From an uncultured Planctomycetota bacterium (GTDB lineage: Bacteria; Planctomycetota; UBA1135; GCA-002686595): 39,825 bases of DNA. Under the pieces are notes generated by a model that made no database searches, had not been told where the DNA came from, and saw nothing but the letters and a program-made list of their open reading frames with translations. Below are positions 30,339 to 38,501 of the stretch, piece by piece. The position numbers were made by a program, and so were the translations under genes. Numbering within the stretch: position 1 is the first letter of the stretch; every line of letters starts with the position of its first letter. The stretch is from NCBI GenBank assembly GCA_903892045.1, contig CAITGX010000352.1:1-39825 (forward strand). The letters are read 5' to 3'.

Positions 30339-31292
30339 TTGAGCGACCGCACCATCGAAGTTCCGGACCCCGATCCGGCCCAGCCCGCGCCCGAGGCGCC
30401 CCAGTCGCCCTACAAGAACCTGCTCGTCCCGCTGGTGGTCGTGCCGTTCATGGTGGTGGGCGTCCTGGTGCTCGTGTTCGTGTTCTTCGGCGCCGTGGCG
30501 GGGGAGGAGACCTCGATCGAGGAGAACCTGCGCCGCGTCGTCGACGGCGGGCTCAACGAGCGCAAGCAGGCGGCCATGAGCCTCGTCTCGCAGGCCCTCG
30601 AGAACCAGCGCGCGCGCGCCGCGGGCACGCCGGAACCGTGGCCGGTGGGGCCGGAGTTCGTCGACCGCCTCGGCCGGGCGTGGGAGGATGTCTCCAAGGA
30701 CGCCGAGCCGACCGCCCGGCGCCTCGCGATCGCCCAGCTCTCGGCGCTCTATGGGGATCCATCTGCTCTGGATCGACTGTCGATCTTCCTTGAAGCGACC
30801 AACGAGCAGGATCCCGATGGCCAGCTGCGCGTGTCGGCCCTGATGGGCCTCTCGTGGCTCGCGGATGAGCGCGCGGCCGCCAAGATCATTCCGCTGCTCG
30901 ACTCCCAGGAGTCCTTCCTGCGGCAGACGGCGGCGGCGGTGCTGCAGAACATCCCCGGTGAGCCCACCAAGGAGGCTCTCGCCCGGCTGCTCGTGGATCC
31001 GGCCCTCGAGCTGCGCGGACAGGCCGCGATCTCGCTCTCGCACTTGGGCGACCCGCGCGGCGCGGCCGTGCTGCGCGAGCTCGTCGATCCGGCGAGCTAC
31101 AGCGTGGTCCAGAGCGCGGAGCCCGCCAAGTTCGCCTCGCCGCGGCTGGTGGAGTCGACCCGGCTGCACGCGGTGGCCGCCCTCGGGCGGTTGAATCGGT
31201 CGGAAGACCGGTCGCTGCTCGAGGCCGTGGCCAAGGACGATTCGAGCCCGCAGGTGCGCGAAGCGGCGATGCGGGCGTTGCAGTCGCCCTGA
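30339..31292 (+). CDS. membrane-anchored HEAT-repeat protein of the respiratory cluster
   Basis: 317 residues from TTG 30339; no better start is in frame. A Pro/Ala-rich cytoplasmic head (1-27) is followed by one transmembrane helix (about 28-52, LLVPLVVVPFMVVGVLVLVFVFFG) and then an exported alpha-helical solenoid of HEAT/PBS-lyase-like repeats (for example RLAIAQLSALYGDPSALDRL, LRVSALMGLSWLADERAAAK, LRGQAAISLSHLGDPRGAAVL, TRLHAVAALGRLNRSEDRSL). No catalytic residues. A terminator-like hairpin and 211 bp separate it from the Rieske gene. I infer a scaffold or assembly role for the b6f-type complex, from position only. Confidence 0.82.
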   Translation: MSDRTIEVPDPDPAQPAPEAPQSPYKNLLVPLVVVPFMVVGVLVLVFVFFGAVAGEETSIEENLRRVVDGGLNERKQAAMSLVSQALENQRARAAGTPEPWPVGPEFVDRLGRAWEDVSKDAEPTARRLAIAQLSALYGDPSALDRLSIFLEATNEQDPDGQLRVSALMGLSWLADERAAAKIIPLLDSQESFLRQTAAAVLQNIPGEPTKEALARLLVDPALELRGQAAISLSHLGDPRGAAVLRELVDPASYSVVQSAEPAKFASPRLVESTRLHAVAALGRLNRSEDRSLLEAVAKDDSSPQVREAAMRALQSP

Positions 31293-31503: not shown

Positions 31504-32070
31504 GTGGCCGACGAGAAGCCCCAGACTCCCGCTGACCCTTCCCTCCAGCCGCCGCCCCTGCGCACCGCTCCGCTGCGCGGCGACGTGTCCCGCCGCGGCC
31601 TGTTCTCGGCCCTCGGGCTGGGCTGGGCCGCGTTCGCTGCCGCCGGCGCCGCCGGTGGTGGCGCAATGCTGCGCTTCCTGATGCCGAACGTGCTCTACGA
31701 GCCGCCGCAGGAGTTCAAGGCCGGCTACCCGACCGAGTTCGCGGTGGGCGCCGTCGACGAGCGCTTCAAGGCCGCCTACGGCGTGTGGATCGTGCGCGAG
31801 CCCACGGGCTTCTACGCGCTCTCCACCGTCTGCACGCACCTTGGCTGCACGCCGAACTGGCTGCAGGCCGACGAGAAGTTCAAGTGCCCGTGCCACGGCT
31901 CGGGCTTCGTGCGCACCGGCGTCAACGTCGAGGGCCCGGCCCCGCGTCCGCTCGAGCGCTACAAGATCGCGCTGGCCGAGGACGGCCAGATCCTGATCGA
32001 CAAGAACACCAAGTTCCAGGAAGAGAAGGGCCAGTGGTCGCTCGACGGCGCCTACCTGCCCTACGCCTGA
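31504..32070 (+). CDS. qcrA: Rieske 2Fe-2S subunit of a b6f/bc-type quinol oxidoreductase
   Basis: 188 residues from GTG 31504. The N-terminus has SRRGLF (twin-Arg, residues 29-34) followed by a hydrophobic segment to about 56, fitting a Tat-exported, membrane-anchored Rieske protein. Cluster ligands: Cys110 and His112 in CTHLGC, Cys128 and His131 in CPCHGS; Cys115 and Cys130 would form the disulfide. It takes one electron from quinol at the positive side and passes it on to a c-type cytochrome. It heads the operon with cytochrome b6 47 bp downstream. The cluster-binding fold is complete; the C-terminal tail (after about 165) is short. Confidence 0.95.
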   Translation: MADEKPQTPADPSLQPPPLRTAPLRGDVSRRGLFSALGLGWAAFAAAGAAGGGAMLRFLMPNVLYEPPQEFKAGYPTEFAVGAVDERFKAAYGVWIVREPTGFYALSTVCTHLGCTPNWLQADEKFKCPCHGSGFVRTGVNVEGPAPRPLERYKIALAEDGQILIDKNTKFQEEKGQWSLDGAYLPYA

Positions 32071-32117: not shown

Positions 32118-32894
32118 ATGACCAAGCTCTTCAACTACATCCGCGAGTCGCAGATCTGGAAGTCGGTCTTCCGGCACGGCTATCCGGACACGCCGCGCAA
32201 CCGCACGCTCGCGGTGCTCTCGAACGTCTTCCTGCACCTGCACCCGGTCAAGGTGCGGCGCAGCGGCATCCGCCTCAGCTACACGTGGTGCATGGGAGGA
32301 CTGACGTTCTTCCTGTTCCTGATCCTGACGCTGACCGGCCTGCTCTTGATGTTCTACTACCGCCCGACGGCGGATAAGGCCTACGAGGACATCTTCGCCC
32401 TGCGCGAGCACGTGCCGATCGGCGTGATGCGCGAGATGCACCGCTGGGGCGCGCACCTGATGGTGATCAGCGTGTGGCTGCACATGTACCGCGTCTTCTT
32501 GACCGGCTCCTACAAGCCGCCGCGCGAGTTCAACTGGAACGTCGGCGTGATCCTGCTCGTGCTGACGCTGCTCCTGTCGTTCACCGGCTACCTGCTCCCG
32601 TGGGACCAGCTCGCCGTGTGGGCCATCACCGTCGGCACGAACATGGCCCGCGCCACGCCGTTCCTCGGCCACGAAGGCCCGGGTGCCGCGCTGGTCAGCT
32701 TCGGCGGCATCGACTTCATCCACGCGGGTGACGACGTGCGCTTCGGCCTGCTCGCCGGCCGCTTCGTCGGCGAAGGCGCGCTGCTGCGCTTCTACGTGCT
32801 GCACTGCGTGGGCTTCCCGCTGATCGCGGCCACGCTGATGGCGGTGCACTTCTGGCGCGTCCGCAAGGACGGCGGCATCTCGGGTCCCCTCTAA
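32118..32894 (+). CDS. petB: cytochrome b6-type subunit with Cys for a covalent c_i haem
   Basis: 258 residues, four transmembrane helices, the short 'split' b of b6f-type complexes. Haem b ligands: His108 and His122 (14 apart) in helix B, His229 and His244 in helix D. The 15-residue spacing of the second pair is the b6f-type spacing (14 in bc1). Cys58 in TWCMGG aligns with the Cys of the plastid b6 motif FYCLGG that binds haem c_i by a single thioether bond. YYRPT follows, as in b6. It oxidises quinol and recycles an electron across the membrane. The subunit IV gene follows after 12 bp, with AAGGA near its start. Confidence 0.93.
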
Positions 32895-32906: not shown

Positions 32907-34049
32907 ATGCACCTCGCTCTTGCGACTCTGCTGGGTGGCGGCGGCGCGCCCGTCAACGACGGGCCGATCGCGGCCGGCATCAAGAACTTCTCGAACTGGC
33001 TCACCGAGCCGACGCGCTACAGCGTGGCGAGCATCCTGGCCGTGGTCGGGATCCTCTACTTCCGCAAGTTCTTCTCGCAGGTGTGGGTGGTCACGGCGTT
33101 CTTCGCGCTGTCGACCGCCTACTTCGTGTTCGCGTTCCAGGACCCGAACTTCAACGCGATCATCACGAAGCCGGACAACGTGCCGATCGTGATCCTGTTC
33201 GTGACGGTGATCTTCTTCTCATGGCTCTCGCTGCGCCGCGCCGTCATCAACGACGAACGCACCAAGCGCGGCGAGCCGACGCTCGAAGGCGAGCTCGCCA
33301 AGCAGAAGGTCTTCACGTGGCCGGACCTCGTCTACTCGGAGCTCATCTGCCTGATCCTGTTCACGGCGGGCATGCTCGTGTGGTCGATCCTGATCACGGC
33401 CCCGATCGAAGAGCCGGCGGCGACGGCCCGCACGCCCAACCCGTCCAAGGCGCCGTGGTACTTCCTCGGCCTGCAAGAGCTGCTGGTCTACTTTGACCCC
33501 TGGCTCGCCGGCGTGGTCCTGCCGAGCTTCATCGTGGTCGGCCTGTGCGCCATCCCGTACCTCGACCTCAACCCCAAGGGCAACGGCTACTACACCTTCG
33601 AGGAGCGCCCGTTCGCGATCGCGTTCTTCTGGGTGGGCTTCCTGCTCTTCTGGGTGTCGTTCGTGATCCTCGGAACCTTCCTCCGCGGGCCGAACTGGTC
33701 GTTCTTCGGGCCCTTCGAGTTCTGGGACCTCCACAAACTCGAGCCGATGGTCAACGTCGACCTCTCGACTTACTTCTGGGTTGAGCTACTCGACAAGCCG
33801 AGGCCGGACAACCCGTTCGTGCGCGAGGCCCCGGGCATCGTGGCACTGATCGGCTACTTCCTGGTCCTGCCTCCGCTGCTCGGCAAGACCGTGATGAAGA
33901 AGATGGTCGAGGAAATGGGCATGGTGCGCTTCAACGTCTTCATGCACCTGTTCCTGTGGTTCGCGCTGATCCCCGTGAAGATGGGCCTGCGCTGGACCGT
34001 GAACCTGAAGTACTTCATCGGCATGCCCGAGTACTTCTTCAACGTCTGA
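32907..34049 (+). CDS. petD: subunit IV-like C-terminal half of cytochrome b, with an N-terminal extension
   Basis: 380 residues; plant subunit IV is about 160. The core (about 138-265) shows WPDLVYSEL and SKAPWYFLGLQELLVYFDPW. The quinol-site motif PEWY of other complexes is APWY at 182-185; the Glu is lost. About eight hydrophobic helices are predicted, three of them in the added N-terminal 110 residues (about 39-53, 58-77, 92-110), plus two at the C-terminus. The extra helices resemble the longer C-terminal cytochrome b subunits of some deltaproteobacteria and planctomycetes rather than cyanobacterial PetD. It pairs with the b6 subunit to complete the quinol-oxidising core, in the cytoplasmic membrane. 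Confidence 0.88.
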   Translation: MHLALATLLGGGGAPVNDGPIAAGIKNFSNWLTEPTRYSVASILAVVGILYFRKFFSQVWVVTAFFALSTAYFVFAFQDPNFNAIITKPDNVPIVILFVTVIFFSWLSLRRAVINDERTKRGEPTLEGELAKQKVFTWPDLVYSELICLILFTAGMLVWSILITAPIEEPAATARTPNPSKAPWYFLGLQELLVYFDPWLAGVVLPSFIVVGLCAIPYLDLNPKGNGYYTFEERPFAIAFFWVGFLLFWVSFVILGTFLRGPNWSFFGPFEFWDLHKLEPMVNVDLSTYFWVELLDKPRPDNPFVREAPGIVALIGYFLVLPPLLGKTVMKKMVEEMGMVRFNVFMHLFLWFALIPVKMGLRWTVNLKYFIGMPEYFFNV

Positions 34050-34107: not shown

Positions 34108-37100
34108 ATGGCGGATCGTGGCGATACCCACTACAGCGTCTCTTCGCTGAACAAGTGGTTCCTCCTCTCCAGCGTGGCCATCCTGCTCTCGCTCGTGTGG
34201 ATGATGGTCGACGACTGGGAACGGCCGTGGAAGCACTACCAGCGTGACTTCCGCGAGATCGAGATCAGCAAGGCGCGCGCCAAGGAGCAGGAGCTCACGG
34301 CGGCCGGCGCGGCGGCGCGCGAGGCGGAGCTCGCGATCAAGGTCAAGGAGGCCGAGCAGCGCGTCGTGGCCAACGAGGCCAAGATCGCCGAGGTCACCGA
34401 GCGCCTGCGGCTCGCGAGGGGCGAGCTGTGGAACGCGATCGAGATCGCGAAGAAGAAGAAGAGCGCCTACAACTGGGACCGCTACATCCTCGAGGAGAAG
34501 CGCCTGGACGAGGGCAACCCGGCCCTCGATCAGGAGAAGCTCGACGAAGTCGAGCTCGCCATGAACGAGGCGATGGGCGTCCAGCAGCAGCTCGAGGCCA
34601 AGAAGCTCGCGATCGACATCGAGCTCTCGGACCTCACCCGCGAGCGTGACAGCGCCCAGAAGGCCCTCTCCGTGGGCTCGCGCGACCTCGAGCAGGTGCG
34701 CAAGCGCCTCGTGCAGCTCGACCGCACGGCCATGAGCGCGCCCGAGAAGGTCGCCGACGTGATCCGCGACGCCCCGGGCCTCGACTTCGTGAAGCCGAAC
34801 CTGAAGGTGAACAAGGTCGTGCTCGACAAGCTCACCTTCGAGCTCAACTTCACCAAGAAGAAGCGCATCGACATGTGCCACACCTGCCACCTCGGCGCGG
34901 ATCGCGCCGGGTTCGAGGGTGAGGCCCAGCCCTACACGACGCACCCGCGCCTCGACCTCTACGTGAGCTCGAAGTCGCCGCACCCGCTCAACGAGTTCGG
35001 CTGCACCATCTGCCACCGCGGCTCGGGCGAGGCGCTCGACTTCGTGCGCGCCGACCACCGCCCGACGGACACGGGCGAGCAGGCGGCCTGGGCCGACGAG
35101 TACCACTGGCACAAGCAGCACCACTGGGACTACCCGATGCTCGCCAGCGAGTACACGGAAGCCTCCTGCGTGCAGTGCCACAAGAGCTCCATGGAGCTGA
35201 TCTCCAAGGACGCGCCGACGGTCTCGAAGGGCTACCAGCTCGTCGAGCGCTACGGCTGCTACAGCTGCCACAAGATCGACTGGTTCCCGACCAAGCGCCG
35301 TCCGGGCCCGAACCTGCGCAACCTGCAGGCCAAGCTCACGCCGGAGTTCGTCACGGGCTGGATCACGGATCCCAAGGCCTTCCGTCCCACCACGTGGATG
35401 CCGCAGTTCTTCCACATCGAGGGCGGCAACTACTCGCCCGGCGACACGATCGTGAAGTCGGAGTACGGCCAGGGCCGCAACATCGAAGGTCGCGAGTGGG
35501 ACAGCGCCGCGATCGCCGCGATCACGGCCTACCTCGTCGACCGCGCGCCGCTCGAGCCGCTCCCGGCGATGCCCGTCGAGGGCGATGCCCACCGCGGTCG
35601 CGAGACGATGCGCCTCTCGGGCTGCTTCGCCTGCCACAACCTCGCCCCCTACGGTGAGGAGCCCACGGCAGCGGACCTCGCCCTCGCCAACACCGGCGAG
35701 AACGAGCACGGTCCGAACCTGCGCGGCGTCGCCACGAAGGTCACCAAGGACTGGCTCTACAACTGGCTCAAGGACCCGACCAAGTACTGGGAAGACACGC
35801 GCATGCCGAACCTGCGCCTGTCGGACCAGGAAGCGGCCGACATCACCGCGTACATCATGGAGGACCCCGATGGGTACTTCCGCGACGTGCCGGAGGGCTG
35901 GAACCCCAAGCTCGTCGACATGGCCGAGTCGACGATGCGCGAGGTGCTCGCCGAGCAGGCGCGCTGGTTCTTCGCTCGCGACGGTCGCGCGGCGGTCGAG
36001 GAGCGCCTGAAGCAGGGCGAGTGGGCCGATCTGTCGAAGCTCAAGGTCGCCGTGGGCGAGAAGCTCGTCGGCAACTACGGCTGCTTCAGCTGCCACGAGA
36101 TCTCGGGCACGCTGGACTGGATGCCGATCGGCGCCGAGCTCTCCAACTGGGGCTCGAAGACCGTCGACAAGCTCGACTTCGGCTTCGTCAAGCTCGACCC
36201 GAACTACCGCGAGGGCTGGCTGATGCAGAAGCTGCACGCCCCGCGCTCGTTCGACCAGCAGAAGATCAAGAACCCCAGCGAGAAGCTGCGCATGCCCTAC
36301 TTCGGCTTCACCGCCGAGGAAGAGCAAGCGATCACGACCTTCATCATCGGCCTCGTCGACGATGAAGTGCAGCTCGCCAAGATGGTCCCCACGCCGGCCC
36401 AGCACTCGATGGACGCCGGCATGCGCGCGGTGCGCCAGAACAACTGTGCCGCGTGCCACATGATCGATCCGGGCACGATCACGTTCACCGACGAGAACGG
36501 CCTCGCCCAGACGATCGCGGCTGAGATCCTGCCGATGTCGGAGGACCAGAAGGTCCCGTCGACCCATGACCTCGCCGCCATCAAGGCGGACGCCGAGAAG
36601 TACGAGAGCGACGAGCTGACGTTCCGCGTGCTGCGGCCCGAGCCGGGCGTGCAGAAGGGCGTCGGCGACAAGGTATTCGTTGCGCCCGACAAGCTCGTGG
36701 CGACCACGGCCCCGCACGGCGGCGACTTCATCCGCGTCGTGACCGACTACTACATGAACGGCATCGAGCTCTTCGATCCGTCCAAGGAAGGCGACGAGGC
36801 CTACAGCTACGTCAGCGGCGGCACCGGCGACGAGTGGGGTACCTACGACGTCGATGGCAAGCTCCGCGACCACTCCTCGGAGCCCTACGACAAGGTCCGC
36901 TGGACGTTCGCTCCGCCGGTCCTGTGGGACGAGGGTGGCAAGCTGCAGCGCGACTGGTTCTTCAGCTTCCTGCACGACGTCGTGTCGCTGCGTCCGCAGG
37001 TGCGCGTGCGCATGCCCTCCTTCCGCTACGACCCCGGCGAGGCCGAGGCGATCGCGGACTACTTCGCCCAGAAGTCGAACAAGGAGTGGCCGGCCAATTT

Positions 37101-37680
37101 CACCCGCGCGGCGCGCCTTGCAACCAAGCAGGACGGCACCGACTTCGCCAGGGCCGCCCGCATGGACGTGACGACGCTCTCGGAAATCGAGAACGGCGTC
37201 GCCATGGCGACCGAGGCCAACTTCCCGAAGGTGCTCGCGTACGCCCAGTCGAAGGGCTTCGCGACCCGTCCGGCCGTGAACCCGGCCTACGAGGCCTCCG
37301 TGCTGCGTTCCAAGGGCCACCTCGACGCCCGCAAGGCGCTGCTCGCCAACCACCTCGAGCTGGGCGAGGCCATCGCCGTGAAGGGCGTCAACTGCTTCCA
37401 GTGCCACTTCCGCCTCGGCACCCCGCCGCCGGCGGACCCGATCGCCTGGGCCCCTGACCTCGAGCGCGTGCGCGAGCGCCTGCGCGAGGACTGGGTGCGC
37501 GACTGGCTCATCAACCCTGCGGTGATCTATCCGGGCACGGCCATGCCGGCCAACTTCGCCTCGACGCCGCCGCAGTATCAGGACCGCTACCCGAACTCGA
37601 CCAACGCGGATCAGGTTCAGGTCGTCCTTGAATGGCTCTACAACTTCGACCGTATGTACATGGGCTCCCCGGGCCAATGA
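34108..37680 (+). CDS. giant octahaem c-type cytochrome with transmembrane anchor and coiled coil
   Basis: 1190 residues. N-terminal helix at about 16-34 (LLSSVAILLSLVWMMV) anchors it; residues about 42-215 are a long charged coiled coil. Eight CxxCH sites begin at Cys257, 299, 354, 384, 506, 659, 780 and 1096. Several sit in cytochrome-c-like modules that end with a Met in contexts such as TWMPQF, TRMPNL, RMPYFG, RMPSFR and TAMPANF (possible sixth ligands). It is the fourth gene of the b6f-like operon and would take electrons from the Rieske protein and carry them outward. It is far larger than the cytochrome f or c1 subunits. Start ATG 34108, 58 bp after subunit IV. Function is inferred from haems and position. 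Confidence 0.88.
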   Translation: MADRGDTHYSVSSLNKWFLLSSVAILLSLVWMMVDDWERPWKHYQRDFREIEISKARAKEQELTAAGAAAREAELAIKVKEAEQRVVANEAKIAEVTERLRLARGELWNAIEIAKKKKSAYNWDRYILEEKRLDEGNPALDQEKLDEVELAMNEAMGVQQQLEAKKLAIDIELSDLTRERDSAQKALSVGSRDLEQVRKRLVQLDRTAMSAPEKVADVIRDAPGLDFVKPNLKVNKVVLDKLTFELNFTKKKRIDMCHTCHLGADRAGFEGEAQPYTTHPRLDLYVSSKSPHPLNEFGCTICHRGSGEALDFVRADHRPTDTGEQAAWADEYHWHKQHHWDYPMLASEYTEASCVQCHKSSMELISKDAPTVSKGYQLVERYGCYSCHKIDWFPTKRRPGPNLRNLQAKLTPEFVTGWITDPKAFRPTTWMPQFFHIEGGNYSPGDTIVKSEYGQGRNIEGREWDSAAIAAITAYLVDRAPLEPLPAMPVEGDAHRGRETMRLSGCFACHNLAPYGEEPTAADLALANTGENEHGPNLRGVATKVTKDWLYNWLKDPTKYWEDTRMPNLRLSDQEAADITAYIMEDPDGYFRDVPEGWNPKLVDMAESTMREVLAEQARWFFARDGRAAVEERLKQGEWADLSKLKVAVGEKLVGNYGCFSCHEISGTLDWMPIGAELSNWGSKTVDKLDFGFVKLDPNYREGWLMQKLHAPRSFDQQKIKNPSEKLRMPYFGFTAEEEQAITTFIIGLVDDEVQLAKMVPTPAQHSMDAGMRAVRQNNCAACHMIDPGTITFTDENGLAQTIAAEILPMSEDQKVPSTHDLAAIKADAEKYESDELTFRVLRPEPGVQKGVGDKVFVAPDKLVATTAPHGGDFIRVVTDYYMNGIELFDPSKEGDEAYSYVSGGTGDEWGTYDVDGKLRDHSSEPYDKVRWTFAPPVLWDEGGKLQRDWFFSFLHDVVSLRPQVRVRMPSFRYDPGEAEAIADYFAQKSNKEWPANFTRAARLATKQDGTDFARAARMDVTTLSEIENGVAMATEANFPKVLAYAQSKGFATRPAVNPAYEASVLRSKGHLDARKALLANHLELGEAIAVKGVNCFQCHFRLGTPPPADPIAWAPDLERVRERLREDWVRDWLINPAVIYPGTAMPANFASTPPQYQDRYPNSTNADQVQVVLEWLYNFDRMYMGSPGQ

Positions 37681-37748: not shown

Positions 37749-38501
37749 ATGAAGAACATCACCCTCGCCTCGATCGTGGCCGGTGCCGCTCTGGCCACCG
37801 CCTTCACCCTCCCCGCCGAGCCCGTGCGCGGCACCCTGACCGGCTCGGTCCTCCTCGCGGAGACCGGCAAGGTTCTGTTCGACGGCGAGAAGCCGGAGGT
37901 CAAGCCGCTCGCGATCGACGCCGCCAAGTCGGAAGGCTGCGGCACGGTCGACACCCAGGACCAGAGCCTGATCATCGGCGCCAACGGCGGCATCGCCAAC
38001 GTCGTCGTGACCGTCGAGGTCGCCGGTGCGACTGTCAAGGCCCCGGAGAAGCCGGTTGTCCTCGACCAGAAGACCTGCCGCTTCGACCCGCACGTCGCGA
38101 TCGTCCCGGTCGGCACCACGATCGAATACAAGAACTCGGACGCCATCTCCCACAACGTGCACACCTACCCCTCGAAGAACGAGGGCCTGAACAAGATGGT
38201 GGGCGCGGGTGCGATGGAGACCCAGAAGCTCGAGAAGGAAGACCGCATCGAGATCAAGTGCGACATCCACCCGTGGATGAACTCGTGGCTGATCGTGGCG
38301 AACACGAACCACTACGCGGTCTCGGGCGCCGACGGCACCTTCACGATCGAAGGCCTGCCGGCGGGTGAGCACAAGGCCAAGTTCTGGCACGAGAAGCTCG
38401 GCAAGGCCGAGGCCACCATCAAGGTCGACGCCGAGGGCAAGGTCGCCCCGGTCGAGGTCAAGATGAGCGCCGAGAAGAAGGGCGGCGGTCGCAAGCGCTA
38501 G
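37749..38501 (+). CDS. exported cupredoxin-like copper protein at the end of the respiratory operon
   Basis: 250 residues. Sec signal at 1-23 (MKNITLASIVAGAALATAFT). The central region has a cupredoxin-type copper site: His135 or His138 in SHNVHTY, then Cys171, His174 and Met177 in CDIHPWM, the spacing of plastocyanin/azurin loops. A short peptidase-regulatory-like beta domain follows (about 190-240, GTFTIEGLPAGEHKA). The tail is basic. It may be the soluble electron carrier for the upstream complex; the copper site is read from motifs only. Starts 68 bp after the cytochrome gene; a strong hairpin follows the stop. Confidence 0.8.
   Translation: MKNITLASIVAGAALATAFTLPAEPVRGTLTGSVLLAETGKVLFDGEKPEVKPLAIDAAKSEGCGTVDTQDQSLIIGANGGIANVVVTVEVAGATVKAPEKPVVLDQKTCRFDPHVAIVPVGTTIEYKNSDAISHNVHTYPSKNEGLNKMVGAGAMETQKLEKEDRIEIKCDIHPWMNSWLIVANTNHYAVSGADGTFTIEGLPAGEHKAKFWHEKLGKAEATIKVDAEGKVAPVEVKMSAEKKGGGRKR

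Follow-up and report, generated by a model that had tools for sequence, protein, structure and literature searches.

What does a cytochrome of 1190 residues with eight haem sites do beside the core of a b6f-like quinol oxidase, and where would its electrons go? The question is raised by the window, the whole stretch of 39,825 nucleotides from an uncultured Planctomycetota bacterium (contig CAITGX010000352.1) that was analysed here. Based on gene content, cofactor ligands, homology, synteny and gene fusions, all of which are read directly from sequence, we assign a probability of about 0.8 to the locus encoding a planctomycete respiratory complex III, that is, a b6f-type complex with an octahaem subunit in place of cytochrome f, which would act as a quinol:cupredoxin oxidoreductase feeding an aa3-type oxidase. 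Most likely, a copper protein would take its electrons on to an oxidase of the ordinary, oxygen-reducing kind, and they would not leave the cell.

A gene of this size should first be verified as a gene. The octahaem cytochrome c subunit (34108..37680, + strand) is an intact ORF of 1190 codons with an ATG start, and the length, the single transmembrane helix and the eight CxxCH motifs given in the initial annotation were all reproduced from the sequence. There are exactly eight such motifs (Cys257, 299, 354, 384, 506, 659, 780, and 1096), they account for all 16 cysteines of the protein, and none of 2000 residue shuffles yielded more than one. The only hydrophobic segment, in which the best 19-residue windows begin at residues 16–18, corresponds to a transmembrane helix at residues 12–37 (34141..34218, +) by hydropathy and in the AlphaFold2 (AF2) model. 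GC3 stays between 0.88 and 0.98 across the gene with no break. A frameshift or assembly join was considered and ruled out, since uninterrupted orthologues of about equal length, 71–91% identical, are present in all six same-genus genomes sampled; orthologues of about equal length also occur in most of the family, and the gene is therefore not an artefact.

The genes upstream, identified with Pfam and NCBIfam, support the proposal that the cytochrome is encoded as part of a b6f-like complex. The Rieske [2Fe-2S] subunit (31504..32070, +; 188 aa; Pfam Rieske 4.5e-10) carries a twin-arginine anchor, and its cluster motifs CTHLGC and CPCHGS are near-invariant or invariant among 55 sequences. It is followed by a cytochrome b6-like subunit of 258 aa (32118..32894, +; Pfam Cytochrome_B 7.8e-41), whose nearest solved chains are those of cytochrome b6 (1e-51). 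The His pairs for its two b haems, H108/H122 and H229/H244, are kept in 58/58 sequences, and Cys58, for haem cN, in 56 of the 57 sequences that have a residue aligned there; the sole exception (L026, genome G056) has Gly at this position (TWGMGG). As in b6f complexes, cytochrome b is split, and a separate gene encodes a subunit IV-like protein of 380 aa with extra transmembrane helices (32907..34049, +; Pfam Cytochrom_B_C 1.5e-4; NCBIfam ExtQ 2e-15). In place of the PEWY quinol-site motif it has APWY, as do all 58 sequences with letters at this site. The conservation of this motif and of the ligands of both b haems, haem cN and the Rieske cluster counts for the complex III reading, and the order Rieske-b6-IV-octahaem is conserved across related loci. 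A membrane-anchored HEAT-repeat protein of 317 aa (30339..31292, +; Pfam HEAT_2 2.1e-19) is encoded upstream of the Rieske gene here and in most related loci; it may be an assembly factor or accessory subunit.

The cytochrome c subunit encoded beside this core is multihaem and far larger than cytochrome c1 or cytochrome f, in agreement with the initial annotation. Pfam recognises class I cytochrome c modules in it and no cytochrome f, and a search for solved relatives found matches to single modules and none to the whole protein. Relatives were aligned in steps, 25 at first, then 43 and finally 68; the last 25 came from distant planctomycetes, among them genomes that match the hydrazine synthase model. 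The first three haems (Cys257, 299, and 354) lie in a trihaem region, residues 223–372 (34774..35223, +), with His279, His292, and His317 as candidate distal ligands. Module 4 (Cys384, candidate distal Met431; 35224..35574, +) is SoxX-like: TIGR04485 matches the whole protein with an E-value of 1.1e-24, and its best stretch is residues 384–477. Module 5 (Cys506, candidate distal Met566; 35575..35907, +) is a class I cytochrome c, with the best stretch of Pfam Cytochrom_C at residues 496–584. The remaining modules, all on the same strand, are module 6 (Cys659, candidate distal Met729; 35908..36381), module 7 with a long insert (Cys780, candidate distal Met969; 36382..37077), and module 8 (Cys1096, candidate distal Met1146; 37363..37677). 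Since all eight candidate sixth ligands, three His and five Met, are invariant in 68/68 aligned relatives, haems 1–3 are probably bis-His and haems 4–8 probably His/Met. We also considered His333, His335, and His338 as ligands, and rejected them because their conservation stops at close relatives.

The AF2 model, built with 43 sequences, has a mean pLDDT of 81. The haem modules are well predicted, except for the trihaem region, which is mostly below 50; this may reflect the absence of haems from the model. Between the membrane anchor and the first haem lies a long helical arm, residues 40–204 (34225..34719, +; pLDDT about 64–91), predicted as helices 40–65, 68–88, 90–135, 142–190, and 192–204. 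The initial annotation had called a coiled coil of about 170 residues here: the long helical region is borne out by the model, but the heptad signal is weak, with a best period of 3.5 and z = −0.4 against shuffles for the window protein (family median 1.6). The arm is among the least conserved regions of the protein (mean identity 35%). In the model, helices 90–135 and 142–190 are joined by a short turn (136–141) and look like an antiparallel hairpin, which speaks against the suggested role as a stalk or oligomer clamp. A fold search with the model gave no match at E ≤ 0.001, and the top matches were unrelated helical proteins.

Eight haems and a large size invite the idea of a wire, which the initial annotation saw as possibly extending as far as the outer membrane or an acceptor outside the cell; the octahaem chain would then take electrons from quinol through the periplasm. 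Residues 287–391 are also weakly similar to MtrC/MtrF and c3/c7 models, at scores below the model cut-offs. However, five of the eight haems sit in putative His/Met modules, several of which resemble SoxX, CcoO or ordinary cytochrome c, and the conserved cluster shows no recognisable porin or outer-membrane cytochrome of the kind expected for an extracellular conduit. The MtrC-like system of the window genome is a separate one, encoded on a different contig. What does lie beside the octahaem gene is a cupredoxin gene, and the distant loci add genes of an oxidase that reduces oxygen. We consider an extracellular wire very unlikely.

The cupredoxin gene (37749..38501, +) directly follows and encodes 250 aa, with a CarboxypepD_reg-like beta domain after the cupredoxin part. 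The protein combines the His-Cys-His-Met site and the fold of a type-1 copper cupredoxin: the ligands His135, Cys171, His174, and Met177 are present in 53–55 of 55 sequences, its AF2 model matches the cupredoxin folds of NirK and amicyanin (5e-7 to 3e-6), and a profile search matches amicyanin (1.4e-6). We propose it as the electron acceptor of the complex. A downstream cupredoxin is found in about 40 of the 46 named loci of the window type with enough flank, and no cupredoxin was detectable in L048, L065, L073, L076, L080, and L082, which also have enough flank. In four MAGs (L058, L059, L066, and L081) a gene fusion joins the two proteins, with a long acidic and proline-rich linker between the octahaem C terminus and the cupredoxin. 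Six distant loci (L085, L127–L131) go further, with one same-strand cluster of Rieske, b6, subunit IV, octahaem, cupredoxin, dihaem cytochrome c, COX2, and COX1. The oxidase genes of the window lineage sit on a separate contig, which counts against the link; the first gene of the window genome's oxidase operon, ahead of COX2 and COX1, is a homologue of the dihaem protein of that cluster (40% identity, 2e-60). That the cupredoxin is conserved, is fused in some genomes and shares a cluster with the oxidase in others suggests a chain whose end is a copper carrier serving the oxidase. In two other loci (L110 in G396 and L113 in G416) the genes after the cupredoxin encode cytochrome c proteins and an oxidase subunit of cytochrome bd-like type.

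One could also imagine that the complex passes quinol electrons to a soluble cytochrome c and that the cupredoxin is a copper chaperone or assembly protein only. Its extra CarboxypepD_reg-like domain, the loci that lack it, and the dihaem cytochrome c between cupredoxin and COX2 in the distant loci would fit such a role, but the full type-1 site is conserved, and in four MAGs the cupredoxin forms one chain with the octahaem protein. We regard this alternative as unlikely and keep the cupredoxin as the proposed acceptor.

The content of the window genome, which is 91% complete, was searched family by family. It has one COX1, one Rieske-linked b6 and, in a different multihaem cluster, a shorter cytochrome b; no other core of the b6/subunit IV type was found, nor any match to ActD (PF11821) of alternative complex III (ACIII). 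The shorter cytochrome b, of 212 aa, belongs to a second multihaem system (G000:C322, L125:2243-7911), whose other members are a cytochrome with nine haems and an MtrC-like protein with five (PF22113 6.5e-21). Among 61 relatives, and with kinship ignored, octahaem/b6 tracks the window type of COX1 (29/32 versus 5/29, Fisher 4e-9); for the family alone p is 0.02, again ignoring kinship. ACIII tracks another COX1 type (33/42 genomes with ActD versus 1/19 without, 5e-8, kinship ignored). ACIII and the octahaem complex appear complementary over the 61 relatives (p about 0.001, kinship ignored), and this is gone within the family (p = 0.26), where the exclusion of ACIII is a weak argument.

All 68 aligned relatives have exactly eight haems at lengths of 802–1865 aa and, by their sequences, form one family conserved over Planctomycetota. 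The longest (L136:3963-9560), at 1865 aa, retains its eight haems. A phylum scan at E ≤ 1e-40 sampled 392 planctomycete genomes and detected the family in 141 of them; its named members come from MAGs only (Planctomycetota or unnamed bacteria). This phylum is large and environmentally important, and the complex may be a main complex III for much of it. In the literature that we searched, the octahaem subunit is described only for anammox bacteria (PMC12954380). The same search found no description of the cupredoxin link, the phylum-wide spread or the invariant ligand set. Planctomycete forms may be covered in reviews that deal with multiple Rieske/cytochrome b complexes.

How might the complex work? 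We infer the order of electron transfer, the Q cycle, the packing, and the direct reduction of the cupredoxin as follows. Quinol would give up its electrons at the b6/subunit IV site on the positive side; one of them would go to a quinone through haems bP, bN, and cN in a Q cycle, and the other would reach the octahaem subunit by way of the Rieske cluster. Entry into this subunit would probably be close to the membrane, with the three putative bis-His haems as a possible site, and from there the electron would move through the five class I modules with His/Met haems to the cupredoxin of the adjoining gene. Next in line would be a dihaem cytochrome c, the CuA site of the aa3-type oxidase, or both. 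As a brace, the helical hairpin would pack along the complex.

The closest known system is that of Kuenenia stuttgartiensis, where Kustd1480–1485 form a Rieske/cytochrome b complex with the octahaem subunit Kustd1485, modelled with long helices that wrap the complex (PMC12954380). We made the comparison via relatives in putative anammox genomes with the published gene layout. The hydrazine synthase domain PF18582 was rejected as sole marker, with many matches in other planctomycetes; because it is non-specific alone, we call a genome putative anammox on PF18582 and gene layout together. These genomes have the order Rieske-b6-flavoprotein-IV-octahaem, equal to that of Kustd1480–1485, and the octahaem profile matches there, in the published gene context, reach down to an E-value of about 1e-70. 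Both complexes have a Rieske protein, a b6-like cytochrome b, a subunit IV-like protein, and a large octahaem cytochrome c with one transmembrane helix and long helices; the putative anammox relatives share the eight haems and ligands of the window protein, and their b subunits are 65–66% identical to the window b6. By homology to the anammox model and by synteny, the octahaem subunit would contact the b6/subunit IV core.

The anammox complex has been proposed to reduce NAD(P), with Kustd1481 His62, Arg266, and Lys267 holding an extra haem at the dimer interface (PMC12954380). The putative anammox b rows of 275 aa have His, Arg, and Lys at these positions, and the corresponding residues of the window b6 are His40, Arg249, and Lys250. 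Given this match and the shared gene family, one might suspect an NAD(P)H-generating bifurcating complex in the window too, with a low-potential electron going to a cytoplasmic flavoprotein. However, the anammox-type flavoprotein, a Pyr_redox_2/Fer4 protein (FAD/4Fe-4S NAD(P) oxidoreductase), has no homologue in any window-type locus, whereas it is present in 8 of the 12 loci taken from genomes that match the hydrazine synthase model, which makes bifurcation here very unlikely. Clusters with the flavoprotein have octahaem proteins of 802–946 aa and no cupredoxin after them, while those of the window type have the cupredoxin and no flavoprotein. A quick, unrooted tree of b6+IV places the window among 27 rows that all lack the flavoprotein and form a clade set apart by a long branch (99 SH-aLRT). 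The interface-haem residues proposed for NAD(P) reduction are conserved in complexes without a flavoprotein, and one locus (L115, G387) has two facing Rieske/b6/subunit IV sets, one with the flavoprotein and the other with the octahaem protein.

For the anammox complexes it had stayed open why there are so many c haems on the positive side (PMC12954380), and the complex III reading provides a testable answer. A bolder version, which we offer tentatively as possible rather than probable, is a wired planctomycete chain, in which the eight haems and the copper form a relay held via the cupredoxin, with or without the dihaem cytochrome, to the aa3 oxidase with no need for a diffusing cytochrome c; the extra interface haem would then be a general family feature unrelated to NAD(P) reduction.

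Other known systems resemble the window complex in part. Alternative complex III shares oxidase-coupled quinol oxidation and multihaem subunits, but its NrfD-based core is unrelated and its ActD was not found in the window genome. The bc1 and actinobacterial bcc complexes also oxidise quinol with a Rieske protein and cytochrome b, although theirs is a single long cytochrome b with a mono- or dihaem c subunit. The Geobacter-type ExtP and ExtQ models of NCBIfam score 265 bits on b6 (cut-off 290) and 57 bits on subunit IV (cut-off 150), all below the curated cut-offs, and those systems have a different cytochrome c. The b6f complex of plants and cyanobacteria has the same split b6/IV, haem cN Cys, four b-haem His, and Rieske protein; it differs in having a monohaem cytochrome f in place of a 1190-aa octahaem cytochrome c, and a smaller subunit IV, and the cupredoxin partner of the window complex would be analogous to its plastocyanin.
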